The position numbers and the translations under genes were made by a program. A stretch of DNA of 64,000 bases from Streptomyces sp. BA2 (GTDB lineage Bacteria; Actinomycetota; Actinomycetes; Streptomycetales; Streptomycetaceae). Shown here piece after piece: positions 39,117 to 43,610 of this stretch. Position 1 is the first letter of the stretch; each line of letters starts with the position of its first letter. Below the pieces are notes generated by a model. The model saw nothing but the letters and a program-made list of their open reading frames with translations. It did no database searches and was not told the origin of the DNA. The DNA lies in contig NZ_WSRO01000002.1 in assembly GCF_009769735.1 (NCBI RefSeq), forward strand, positions 3,360,001 to 3,424,000, in the 5' to 3' direction.

Positions 39117-42029
39117 CTACGCCGGAACGATGTTCACCAGCTTCGGCGCCCGCACGATGACCTTGCGGATCCCGGCGCCGTCCATCGCGGCCAGCACCCT
39201 CTCGTCCCCCAGGGCCACCTTCTCCAGCTCCTCGTCCGAGATCGACGGGGAGACCTCCAGGCGCGCCCTGACCTTGCCCTTGATCTGCACGACGCAGGTC
39301 ACGGTCTCGTCGACGACGTACGCCGGGTCGGCGACGGGGAAGTCCTGGTGGACGACCGAGTCGGTGTGGCCCAGCTTGCGCCACAGCTCCTCGCCGACGT
39401 GGGGGGCCAGCGGAGCGATCAGCAGCACCAGGCGCTCGGCGACCGAGCGCGGCAGCGTGCCGCCCTCCTTGGTCAGGTAGTTGTTCAGCTCGGTGATCTT
39501 GGCGATGGCGGTGTTGAACCGCATGCCGTCCAGGTCCTGGCGCACGCCGTCGATCGCCTTGTGCAGGGCGCGCAGCGTGCCCTCGGCGATGTCGGACTCC
39601 GCGACGTCCGCGACCGTGACCTCACCGGTCGACTCGTCGACGATCAGACGCCACATGCGCTGCAGCAGGCGGTACTGGCCGACCACCGCGCGCGTGTCCC
39701 ACGGGCGCGAGACGTCCAGCGGGCCCATCGCCATCTCGTACAGGCGCAGGGTGTCCGCGCCGTACTCCTCGCAGATCTCGTCCGGAGTGACGGCGTTCTT
39801 CAGGGACTTGCCCATCTTGCCCAGCTCGCGCTTGACCGGCTCGCCCTCGAAGAAGTACTGGCCGTCGCGCTCCTCGACCTCGGTCGCCTGGACCGGGAAG
39901 CCGCGGCTGTCGCGGTACACGTAGGCCTGGATCATGCCCTGGTTGAACAGCTTGTGGAACGGCTCGGAGGACGAGATGTGCCCCAGGTCGAACAGCATCT
40001 TCGACCAGAAGCGGGCGTACAGCAGGTGCAGCACCGCGTGCTCGGCACCGCCCACGTACAGGTCGACGCCACCGGTCGGCTGCCCCTCGCGCGGGCCCAT
40101 CCAGTACTGCTCGACGGCCGGGTCGACCAGCTTCTGGTCGTTGTGCGGGTCCAGGTAGCGCAGCTCGTACCAGCACGAACCGGCCCAGTTGGGCATGGTG
40201 TTGGTCTCGCGGCGGTACTTCTTGGGCCCGTCGCCCAGGTCCAGGGTGACGTTGACCCAGTCCTCGTTGCGGGACAGCGGCGTCTCCGGAGAGGTGTCCG
40301 CGTCGTCCGGGTCGAAGGTGCGCGGGGAGTAGTCCTCGACCTCCGGCAGCTCCAGGGGCAGCATCGACTCGGGCAGCGAGTGGGCGACGCCGTCCTCGTC
40401 GTAGACGATCGGGAAGGGCTCGCCCCAGTAGCGCTGGCGGCTGAACAGCCAGTCGCGCAGGCGGAAGTTGACGGTGCCCTCGCCGATGCCGCGCGTGGCC
40501 AGCCAGCCGGTGATCCGTGCCTTGGCACCGGCGACGTCCAGGCCGTCCAGCGAGATCTCCTCGTTCGAGGAGTTGACCAGCTTCGCCTCGTAGGAGGAGA
40601 AGGCGTCGTCCCACGTCGCCGTGTCGGTACCGCGGCCGTCCGAGGGCTCGACCACGCAGTGCATCGGCAGGTGGAAGGCGCGGGCGAAGGCGAAGTCGCG
40701 GCTGTCGTGCGCCGGGACGGCCATGATCGCGCCGGTGCCGTAGCCCATCAGGACGTAGTCGGCGATGAAGACCGGGACCTGCTCGCCGCTGACCGGGTTG
40801 GTGGCGTAGACGCCGGTGAAGACGCCGGTCTTCTCCTTGGCGTCGGCCTGGCGCTCCACGTCGGACTTGGAGGCGGCGAACGCGCGGTACTTGGCGACGG
40901 CCTCGGCCGGGGTGGCGTGCCCGCCGGTCCACGTCTCGTGGGTGCCCTCGGGCCAGGCGTCGGGGACGACCTTGTCGACCAGCTCGTGCTCGGGCGCCAG
41001 GACCATGTAGGTGGCGCCGAACAGCGTGTCCTGGCGGGTGGTGAAGACGGTGATCGCGTCGCCGTCCTCGGAGCCGACCGGGAAGTCGACGCGGGCGCCT
41101 TCGGAGCGGCCGATCCAGTTGCGCTGCTGCAGCTTGATGGCCTCGGGCCAGTCCAGGCCGTCCAGGTCGTCCAGCAGGCGGTCCGCGTACGCCGTGATGC
41201 GCATGTTCCACTGACGCAGCTTGGCCTTGAAGACGGGGAAGTTGCCGCGCTCGGACCGGCCGTCGGCGGTGACCTCCTCGTTCGCCAGGACGGTGCCCAG
41301 GCCGGGGCACCAGTTGACGGGCGCGTCGGACGCGTATGCCAGGCGGAACTCGCCCAGTACCTCAGCGCGCTCCGCGGCGTTCAGCTCGCTCCACGCGCGC
41401 GTGGTGCCCGGTACGGCACGCTCACCGCTGTCGAACTGCGCGACCAGGTCGGCGATCGGACGGGCCTTCTTCGCCTCCTCGTCGTACCAGGAGTTGAAGA
41501 TCTGTACGAAGATCCACTGGGTCCACTTGTAGTAGTCCGGGTCGATCGTCGCGAAGGAGCGGCGATTGTCGTGGCCCAGGCCCAGACCGCGCAGCTGCGT
41601 CTTCATGTTCTCGATGTTGGCCTCGGTGGAGACCCGGGGGTGCGTGCCCGTCTGCACGGCGTACTGCTCGGCGGGCAGGCCGAAGGCGTCGAAGCCCAGG
41701 GTGTGCAGGACGTTGTGGCCCGTCATGCGCTGGAAGCGCGCGTAGACGTCCGTGGCGATGTAGCCCAGCGGGTGGCCGACGTGCAGGCCGGCGCCGGAGG
41801 GGTACGGGAACATGTCCATGATGAACTTCTTGGGCTTGGCGACCAGCGCGGCCTGCGCGGCCGACGCCTCGGCGGACGGCGCCAGGTCACCGCTCGGGTT
41901 CGGCGCCTCGTACGTGCCGTCGGCGTCCCAGAAGTCCTGCCAGCGTGCCTCGATGTCGGCGGCCAGGGCGGCCGTGTAGCGGTGCGGTGCGGCCACCTCG
42001 GAGGCGGCAGCAGAATTCGTCTCGCTCAT
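39117..42029 (-). CDS. leuS: leucyl-tRNA synthetase
   Basis: A 970-residue class I synthetase charging tRNA-Leu. The HIGH-type motif is HVGH in the [15 protein letters not shown] region near residue 90. The editing (CP1) domain lies in the middle. KMSKS is KMGKS in [11 protein letters not shown] near residue 730. The C-terminal anticodon-binding and Leu-specific domains are complete. The ATG at 42029 ([20 protein letters not shown]) follows a GAGG site; the longer frame upstream runs through the attenuator and is rejected. A leader peptide and terminator at 42195-42087 imply control by leucine or charged tRNA-Leu supply. Confidence 0.97.
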
Positions 42030-42086
42030 GATCCTCAAAGCTCCATCGATCGTCTCTGCCTGCGGAAATGACCGTCCTGGCCAAAT

Positions 42087-42112
42087 GAAAAATCCCCTCA
42101 CACAGGAGGGGA
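42087..42112 (-). terminator. intrinsic terminator in the leuS leader (attenuator)
   Basis: On the minus strand, a stem of 7 bp (42106-42112 with 42093-42099) around a 6-nt loop is followed at once by five T residues (42092-42088). It lies 58 nt upstream of the leuS start and downstream of the Leu-rich leader peptide. A real U-tract is uncommon in Streptomyces, so this is a strong terminator candidate inside the leader rather than at a gene end. Confidence 0.85.
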
Positions 42113-42113
42113 C

Positions 42114-42166
42114 GCCGCGCCGATGCCGACCGTGATTTTCCGGCGGTCGGGACTGATCAGCGCGGC
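42114..42166 (-). promoter_or_regulatory. alternative RNA structures in the leuS leader
   Basis: A perfect 7-bp hairpin (42126-42132 with 42144-42150) is enclosed by a second possible 7-bp pairing between 42160-42166, inside the last leader-peptide codons, and 42114-42120, just before the terminator stem. A ribosome on the leader peptide would cover the 42160-42166 strand. How this couples to the terminator is inference. Confidence 0.6.
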
Positions 42167-42195
42167 CCGCTAAGCAGAAGGCGTACGGCACGCAT
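42157..42195 (-). CDS. leuS leader peptide with three consecutive Leu codons
   Basis: A 12-codon frame, ATG at 42195 to TGA at 42157, encodes [12 protein letters not shown]. The three Leu codons (CTT CTG CTT) are consecutive. Two are CTT, a rare codon in high-GC Streptomyces, which fits a ribosome-stalling sensor. A TACCCT -10-like box ends 6 bp before the ATG, implying a leaderless transcript that starts with this peptide. An RNA hairpin and an intrinsic terminator follow before leuS. The arrangement is the textbook layout of ribosome-mediated attenuation: when charged tRNA-Leu is scarce, stalling would prevent termination and raise LeuRS synthesis. The peptide is seen directly; its regulatory role is inferred. 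Confidence 0.82.
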
Positions 42196-42201
42196 GGCGT
42201 C

Positions 42202-42207
42202 AGGGTA
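42202..42207 (-). promoter_or_regulatory. candidate -10 box of the leuS leader
   Basis: TACCCT (TANNNT pattern) on the minus strand, ending 6 bp before the leader-peptide ATG. No convincing -35 hexamer is seen 16-19 bp upstream. Confidence 0.5.
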
Positions 42208-42443
42208 CCGCAGCGCTCGCGCCGCCCGCGACGAGGTTCCCCCGCACCACTCCGCGCCGCCCCGAGGCCCACGGGAAGCCCGGCGCTCCACCTTTGGCCA
42301 AGGGTTACTCCGCGTACCGACCGCTATCGGGGCAACACCAAGATCGCATCGCGTTTAGATAACAACGCAATAACTCAAACCTCGTACTCACTGGTATGCG
42401 GCGACTTAGCATGCGGCGATCGAGCCATTTCGGAGTCGCCCCC

Positions 42444-43610
42444 ATGAACCCTCTGAATCCTCATCGCAAGAGCCGCGCAAGCCGCACCGACCGCAAGAGC
42501 CGTTCGTTCGCAGCATTCCCCGAACCAAGCAGAGCCACGCGTGGAGTCCTGACCACCGCCGCACTGCTGCTGATACCCCTGCTCGTGGTCATCGGGAGCG
42601 ACGCCTTCCGCGCCGCACTCGACTTCACCACCGGCGTCCTGTCCCTGGTCTCCCTGACCTCCGCCGTCGTCTGGGGCCTGGTCGCCACGGACCGGCTCTT
42701 CCTGCACTCCCGTCAGCGACTGCTCGCCCAGGCCGTGCACCGGGCCACCGCCGTCGCCTCCATCGGTTTCCTCCTGCTCCACGCCACCATCAAGCTCGCG
42801 CTCGACCACGTCTCTCCGGTCGGCGCCCTCATCCCCTTCGGGCTCGGCTTCTCCGGCAGCGACGGGCTCATCGGCCTCGGCTCGCTCGCCGGGCTCCTCA
42901 TGGTGGTCACAGGCGTCACCGGGGCCCTGCGCAGCGCCTTCGCCTCGCCGGCCCAGGTCGCGTCGCGCTGGCGCGCGCTGCACATGCTCGCCTACCCGGC
43001 CTGGTGTTCGGCGCTGATCCACGGCCTGTACGCGGGACGCCCGCCCAGCGCGTGGGTGACCGCCCTGTACTGCCTCTGCCTGGTCGCCGTCGCGGGCGCG
43101 GTCGCGTTGCGCGCCGCCCCGCTCCCGATCAAGCGGAAGGTGGCCGCCCGGATCCTTGCCCTCCTCGAAACCGAGGGCAGGGCCCGCAACAGAGAGCCCG
43201 TCCGCCGGGACACCACCGAGTCCCCGCTCCCCGGCACGGCCGCCGCTCCCGGCCGTGCCCCCGAACCCGGGCCCGACCCGACCCCGGTGGTCGGCATCGC
43301 GGCGGCCTACCGCGTCCTCGCCTCCAGCAACCAGCCCACGGAGGTCCTGCCGCTCACCGACCCCCCGCCGCCCCGCTGGCCGTCCCCGTCCCCGCCTCCC
43401 CCGGCCGAGGCCCCTCACATCCCGTACGACACCGCGTACGACTACGACACCACGTACGACCCGCCGTACGGCGCGGCCCACAACCCCCCGTACGAGGCCC
43501 CGTACCAAGCCCCGTACGACAGCGGCCCCGCCACTGAACCGCTGCCCCACACCTTCCAGGCGCCGAGTTCGGGCGAGCCCTGGAACGCCGCCACCGGAGG
43601 CCCCAAGTGA
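42444..43610 (+). CDS. cytochrome-b-like membrane protein
   Basis: A 388-residue protein with about five to six membrane helices in residues 30-235 and a disordered Pro-rich tail with Pro-Tyr repeats. Two helices carry His pairs spaced as in b-type haem proteins: HRATAVASIGFLLLHAT and LHMLAYPAWCSALIHG. This suggests a ferric-reductase-like or cytochrome b transmembrane domain. The ATG at 42444 has GGAG 8 nt upstream; an in-frame ATG at 42396 is less likely. The stop overlaps the GTG of the next gene (GTGA), a NuoF/ferredoxin-like protein, so the two probably form an electron-transfer pair across the membrane. Haem binding is inferred. Confidence 0.85.
   Translation: MNPLNPHRKSRASRTDRKSRSFAAFPEPSRATRGVLTTAALLLIPLLVVIGSDAFRAALDFTTGVLSLVSLTSAVVWGLVATDRLFLHSRQRLLAQAVHRATAVASIGFLLLHATIKLALDHVSPVGALIPFGLGFSGSDGLIGLGSLAGLLMVVTGVTGALRSAFASPAQVASRWRALHMLAYPAWCSALIHGLYAGRPPSAWVTALYCLCLVAVAGAVALRAAPLPIKRKVAARILALLETEGRARNREPVRRDTTESPLPGTAAAPGRAPEPGPDPTPVVGIAAAYRVLASSNQPTEVLPLTDPPPPRWPSPSPPPPAEAPHIPYDTAYDYDTTYDPPYGAAHNPPYEAPYQAPYDSGPATEPLPHTFQAPSSGEPWNAATGGPK

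Follow-up and report, generated by a model that had tools for sequence, protein, structure and literature searches.

The leuS gene of Streptomyces sp. BA2 is preceded by a conserved leader predicted to act as a ribosome-mediated transcription attenuator

The leuS gene of Streptomyces sp. BA2 is preceded by a leader element that is very probably a ribosome-mediated transcription attenuator, with a predicted response to leucine. The element lies on the minus strand of the window, as we term the whole 64,000-nucleotide stretch of DNA that was analysed, and it combines three features of a classical attenuator: a leader frame with Leu codons, a compensated stem at the end of that frame, and an intrinsic terminator before the gene. 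The features are as follows.

42202..42207, minus strand: -10-like box TACCCT, 6 nt 5' of the leader ATG (from the sequence)
42157..42195, minus strand: leader peptide frame of 12 codons, with ATG at 42195 and the TGA ending at 42157 (from the sequence)
42172..42180, minus strand: putative regulatory Leu codons CTT CTG CTT (from the sequence)
42157..42166, minus strand: 5' strand of the leader stem (B), GCCGCGCTGA, overlapping the last leader codons and the stop (from the sequence)
42126..42150, minus strand: inner hairpin CCGACCG/CGGTCGG, arms 42150-42144 and 42132-42126 (from the sequence and fold)
42114..42123, minus strand: 3' strand of the leader stem (D), TCGGCGCGGC, which makes a ten-pair stem with B (from the sequence)
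42093..42112, minus strand: terminator stem-loop TCCCCTC-CTGTGT-GAGGGGA (from the fold and a terminator scan)
42088..42092, minus strand: T tract TTTTT (from the sequence)
39117..42029, minus strand: leuS, leucyl-tRNA synthetase of 970 aa, ATG at 42029 (Pfam PF13603, PF00133, PF08264, PF09334)

An initial annotation had read this region as the layout of ribosome-mediated attenuation on a tRNA synthetase gene, a reading that the conservation of the leader, the Leu codons and both stems supports. The -10-like box (42207-42202), the 12-codon frame with three consecutive Leu codons, two of them CTT (42195-42157), the inner hairpin behind it and the terminator with its five T residues (42112-42088) are all present as that annotation described them; a second pairing, suspected between the end of the peptide and the base of the terminator, corresponds to B (42166-42157) with D (42123-42114), and the T run is separated from the leuS ATG by 58 nt. 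Its description of CTT as rare is fair, given that the codon makes up 73 of 1801 Leu codons (4.1%) when counted over 35 long frames of high GC3 in the window, a set that was chosen mechanically and may include false frames. A terminator scan of both strands from 41900 to 42600 returned three sites against a shuffle mean of 0.4, two of the three being the leuS leader hairpin, and the fold of 42027-42195 had a z of -2.77, with 2 of 200 shuffles equally low. When 41900-42500 was searched with cmscan, no Rfam family matched the leader above its own threshold; at E<=1 the T-box was not matched, and the sole match was a sub-threshold one to an unrelated lncRNA family.

Conservation within the genus was examined in 121 Streptomyces genomes searched with the LeuS N-terminus, 119 of which matched; the two lacking a leuS match were left out. 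A leader of the form MRA..LLL..PR was found in all 119 leuS upstream regions, as the SEPR variant in 63 and the SGPR variant in 31. The Leu codons are identical, CTT CTG CTT, in 107 of the regions; stem strand B is invariant in 119/119, each of which also carries a TANNNT ending 5-8 nt 5' of the leader ATG; and TTTTT stands immediately 3' of the terminator stem in 114. The inner hairpin varies in both sequence and length and is absent from some relatives (L118-L120, for example). Within the genus alone, the stems were invariant and none of the 20 predicted pairs had changed on both sides.

Directly before leuS, the block GGCAGAGACGATCGATGGAGCTTTGAGGATC at 42060-42030 is also strongly conserved in the genus, with GATGGAGC retained in 113 and GGCAGAG in 91 of the 119 regions; this conservation goes beyond that required of a Shine-Dalgarno sequence. 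Separately, TCATGTCCGG recurs 3' of the T tract in many other actinobacteria (L190-L195, just after the terminator). The purine-rich block raises the alternative that control is mainly translational, the Leu run pairing with 42060-42030 as has been suggested for the LEU element of leuA; UUCUGCU can indeed pair with the GGCAGAG of those 91 regions, and leader bases 17-24 are paired with AGGCAGAG in the window's predicted minimum-energy fold. We judge this very improbable, because an intrinsic terminator stands between the Leu run and the block, because 17 of the 119 regions have GGCAGAT, and because the first Leu codon is CTC in 11 genomes, 9 of which keep GGCAGAG, so that a mismatch is accepted. 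Pairing of the Leu run with GGCAGAG showed no compensation in the 119 genus regions and was rejected.

A 1051-aa open frame that begins at GTG 42272 and is in frame with leuS could be taken to mean that the leader frame is part of a longer LeuS N-terminus, yet the leader is read in a different frame from this long ORF; moreover, among the 108 regions in which the LeuS match starts at residue 1, the distance from leader to leuS is spread over the three frames (23, 44 and 41 regions), so that no LeuS extension is kept. Similarly, the terminator might serve an upstream gene, since the minus-strand frame 42375-43550 runs towards it. Both this frame and the plus-strand frame 42396-43610 that overlaps it lack a Pfam match, so that either may be the gene, and outside the genus the element accompanies leuS in 87 of 98 matches. 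We consider either account extremely unlikely.

The spread of the attenuator candidate was followed with a covariance model built from 115 distinct genus sequences. In an order-level sample all 197 genomes matched the model, including 16 from outside the genus; some of the genus genomes, however, had contributed sequences to the model and so match by construction. In a class-level sample the model matched 115 of 296 genomes and 54 of 114 genera; 28 of the 115 matching genomes belong to the genus, and outside it 87 of 268 genomes match. The remaining 181 of the 296 gave no match under strict filters, and the strictness of these filters leaves absence there unproven.

Of 106 out-of-genus matches listed, 98 were examined, and it is 87 of these that sit upstream of leuS; among matches with E<=1e-4, 85 of 87 do so. 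Nine weak matches (E 0.006-0.04), as well as L230, a match at a contig end, had no leuS match in the stretch downloaded. One match away from leuS, L258 (E 1.2e-5), falls within a long open frame and was taken as false; the frame appears to encode a P-type ATPase. A DNA pattern scan of named genomes placed all 20 of 20 loci 88-218 nt before a LeuS match, with Amycolatopsis, Gandjariella, Isoptericola and Streptomyces among the taxa, along with assembled genomes labelled Actinophytocola, Frankiaceae, Sporichthyaceae, Propionibacteriales and others.

This wider set allowed the stems to be assessed by covariation. The parser required at least 7 pairs for B:D and permitted 0-4 nt before the terminator; 78 of 87 leuS-linked sequences entered, and nine fell outside the parse (L207, L225, L236, L241, L242, L245, L248, L255 and L269). 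After near-duplicates and ambiguous sequences had been removed 66 remained, six of which were dropped from the alignment for unusual lengths (L165, L166, L198, L224, L257 and L261), so that the alignment comprised 60 sequences plus the window (61 in all). Over both stems 95.0% of cells were paired and two-sided changes occurred at 11 of 18 pairs. The B:D stem contributed 98.2% of cells paired and two-sided changes in 5 of 10 pairs (among them C-G to U-A, G-C to A-U and U-A to C-G), and the terminator stem 90.9% and 6 of 8 pairs; these percentages are biased upwards by the preselection of rows, and that for the terminator is lowered where the aligner moved its arm by one column. Cells with a two-sided change numbered 71 against a shuffle mean of 16.7 (0 of 500 shuffles as high), and slid versions of the alignment gave at most 10. 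In the four outer B:D pairs (columns 23-26 with 72-75), two-sided change was absent among the 61 sequences. The initial annotation had proposed that conserved Leu codons, stems and T tract, together with compensatory changes, would support its reading; the former are borne out by the genus alignment, with a leader in all 119 regions, and the latter were found in both stems across actinobacterial families. Together these comparisons indicate that the leader element is not a chance arrangement.

The position of the Leu codons relative to the stem is also constrained. All 77 parsed out-of-genus sequences place their last Leu codon exactly 8 nt 5' of B; it reads CTT in 74 of them and CTC in the other 3. 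An in-frame start was present within 60 nt in all 77, a loose test in which ATG, GTG and TTG were all accepted. In several families the stop codon falls directly 5' of B rather than at its end; L211, L216, L223, L240 and L246 have a TAG just 5' of B, the stem being non-coding, and still keep the codon-to-stem spacing. The loop of B:D, meanwhile, spans 3 to about 50 nt outside the genus. Such a fixed 8-nt register is expected if the position of the ribosome on the last Leu codon matters for B.

In Escherichia coli the ribosome footprint extends 15 nt beyond the first P-site base. When this figure was applied to the window, the probability of B:D was 1.00, 0.80 and 0.21 with Leu codons 6, 7 and 8, respectively, in the A site, and 0.00 with the ribosome at the stop codon, which also covers B; the same states in 195 relatives (117 of the 119 genus sequences and 78 others) gave means of 0.99, 0.78-0.79, 0.21-0.26 and 0.00. 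At +15, therefore, the last Leu codon is the one able to open B:D, and a stall on the first would leave the stem intact; if the footprint is set to +12 or +18, opening of B:D in the window shifts by one codon. The terminator was favoured in each ribosome state modelled, with a probability of 0.94-0.96 in the window and means of 0.88-0.99 over the 195 relatives, although single sequences dropped to near 0.

B:D and the terminator do not overlap, so that a textbook competition between the two is not visible, and no conserved antiterminator able to exclude the terminator emerged from state models, loop controls or a five-pair helix scan. The best candidate was pairing of D with the terminator loop, which in a truncated-transcript model was commonest with B masked and the 3' arm not yet made, and for which five-pair helices are possible in 98% of the 115 genus sequences. 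It was rejected: outside the genus 27 of 62 unique cases fell below the shuffled mean versus 35 above it, and permutations were as low or lower in 28 of 90 cases with the genus loop, 16 of 60 with the loop of the window, and 19 of 90 and 154 of 180 with two other loop types. In the five-pair helix scan of the upstream part against the terminator, pairing between the Leu run and the 3' arm of the terminator was the only kind frequent across the class (72-87% of the 61 sequences), the commonest competing helix being UCCUU with GAGGG (87% of the 61). In the window, this corresponds to the complementarity, with G-U pairs, of 42180-42172 to 42099-42093 in the 3' arm, which most of the 61 sequences share. 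As a switch this pairing was likewise rejected. A ribosome stalled on the Leu codons would mask them, which is the wrong direction; furthermore, although the helix would be stronger with C than with U as the last base of the run, 74 of the 77 parsed sequences retain CTT. The complementarity probably arises incidentally from Leu codons rich in pyrimidines and an arm rich in G.

That no conserved antiterminator was established, and that the terminator is favoured in all modelled ribosome states, would suit a constitutive leader, in which an ordinary terminator would reduce transcription of leuS to a constant degree and the Leu codons would be uninformative. Such a leader would not readily account for a Leu codon fixed 8 nt from the stem in 77 of 77 sequences, as the rare CTT in 74, nor for a register that stays fixed although the stem loop varies from 3 to about 50 nt, and we regard it as improbable.

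We favour attenuation, which might proceed as follows. Transcription would probably start at or beside the leader ATG, so that a ribosome loads at once on a leaderless frame. With charged Leu-tRNA plentiful, the ribosome would clear the Leu codons, finish at the stop and depart, upon which B:D and the adjoining terminator would form and most transcripts would end near 42088. Were Leu-tRNA short, the ribosome would stall on the Leu codons; with the last of these (CTT) in the A site it would cover half of B, B:D could not close, and the free D would interfere with the terminator, allowing polymerase to continue into leuS. Because no conserved antiterminator was established we infer the step from stall to read-through, as we do the stall, the read-through itself and the way in which free D would block termination. 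Tentatively, and with the view that this is rather unlikely, we suggest that the leuS attenuator has no textbook antiterminator: a ribosome at the near-invariant slow CUU, 8 nt before the leader stem, would dissolve the stem that adjoins the terminator (0-4 nt apart as parsed), such that the presence or absence of the neighbouring stem, not a competing hairpin, decides termination, by a mechanism that would be old and widely conserved.

The attenuator would probably provide more leucyl-tRNA synthetase when charged leucine tRNA is scarce. The covariation and the fixed codon-to-stem spacing define a solid, testable family for which no Rfam model matched, and this family can help to locate synthetase genes under leucine-starvation control among actinobacteria. 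A further question is how a stalled ribosome could prevent termination, given that the two conserved stems occupy separate stretches of the leader.

The trp and leu operon attenuators of E. coli consist of a leader peptide containing the sensed amino acid, a stem over the end of the peptide, and a terminator before the gene. The window element has this layout of leader, stem and terminator in common with them, whereas the textbook 2:3 antiterminator is not established for it; unlike the E. coli attenuators, it would control a synthetase gene and probably has a leaderless start. The LEU elements of actinobacterial leuA are likewise Leu-codon leaders before a leucine gene; there, according to the extracts of PMC1262725, a pseudoknot-like fold brings the Leu codons into pairing with the Shine-Dalgarno box. 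The window element differs in having a terminator, and its pairing of the Leu run with GGCAGAG is unsupported, being without compensation.

That the type might not be new had been allowed for at the outset, and a leuS attenuator has in fact been predicted: the extracts of Seliverstov et al. (2005; PMC1262725) place candidate classical attenuators before the leuS genes of S. coelicolor and S. avermitilis, which agree with the window in the gene, a Leu-codon leader ORF, a terminator with poly-U and the classical mechanism proposed. In S. lividans TK24, a 2021 RNA-seq study reported LeuL2, a leaderless leader peptide upstream of leuS that has a hairpin and then a run of uridines behind it (PMC8079986, in extract). 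The leader in the window fits the LeuL2-type MRAVRLLLS(E/G)PR directly upstream of leuS, differing from LeuL2, which is from another species, by one residue; the leaderless start has RNA-seq behind it for LeuL2, whereas for the window the evidence is the TACCCT box. As described in these extracts, the leuS leaders of both papers are orthologues of the window element.

As far as the same extracts go, the case for leuS attenuation in Streptomyces consists of predictions for two genomes, together with an annotation based on RNA-seq in one more. Among the literature matches listed, no leuS attenuator beyond Streptomyces was recognised: the term leuS is absent from the main text, as retrieved, of PMC4833913, PMC13236596 and PMC8269248; PMC11995493 has leuS as a neighbour of trpP and does not treat its attenuation; nor do PMC9413887 and PMC3896937, in which the term matched the author name Leustek. 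The breadth seen here, 54 of 114 genera in the class sample, is a possible novelty, and Lopatovskaya et al. (2010) may already list leuS attenuators outside Streptomyces; the fixed codon-to-stem register, as read from the alignments, may be new. A leuS attenuator is thus already known in kind and for leuS itself; whereas the candidates in the extracts of PMC1262725 come from only two Streptomyces, the present analysis adds the class-wide spread, with its covariation, and the fixed register between the last Leu codon and the leader stem.
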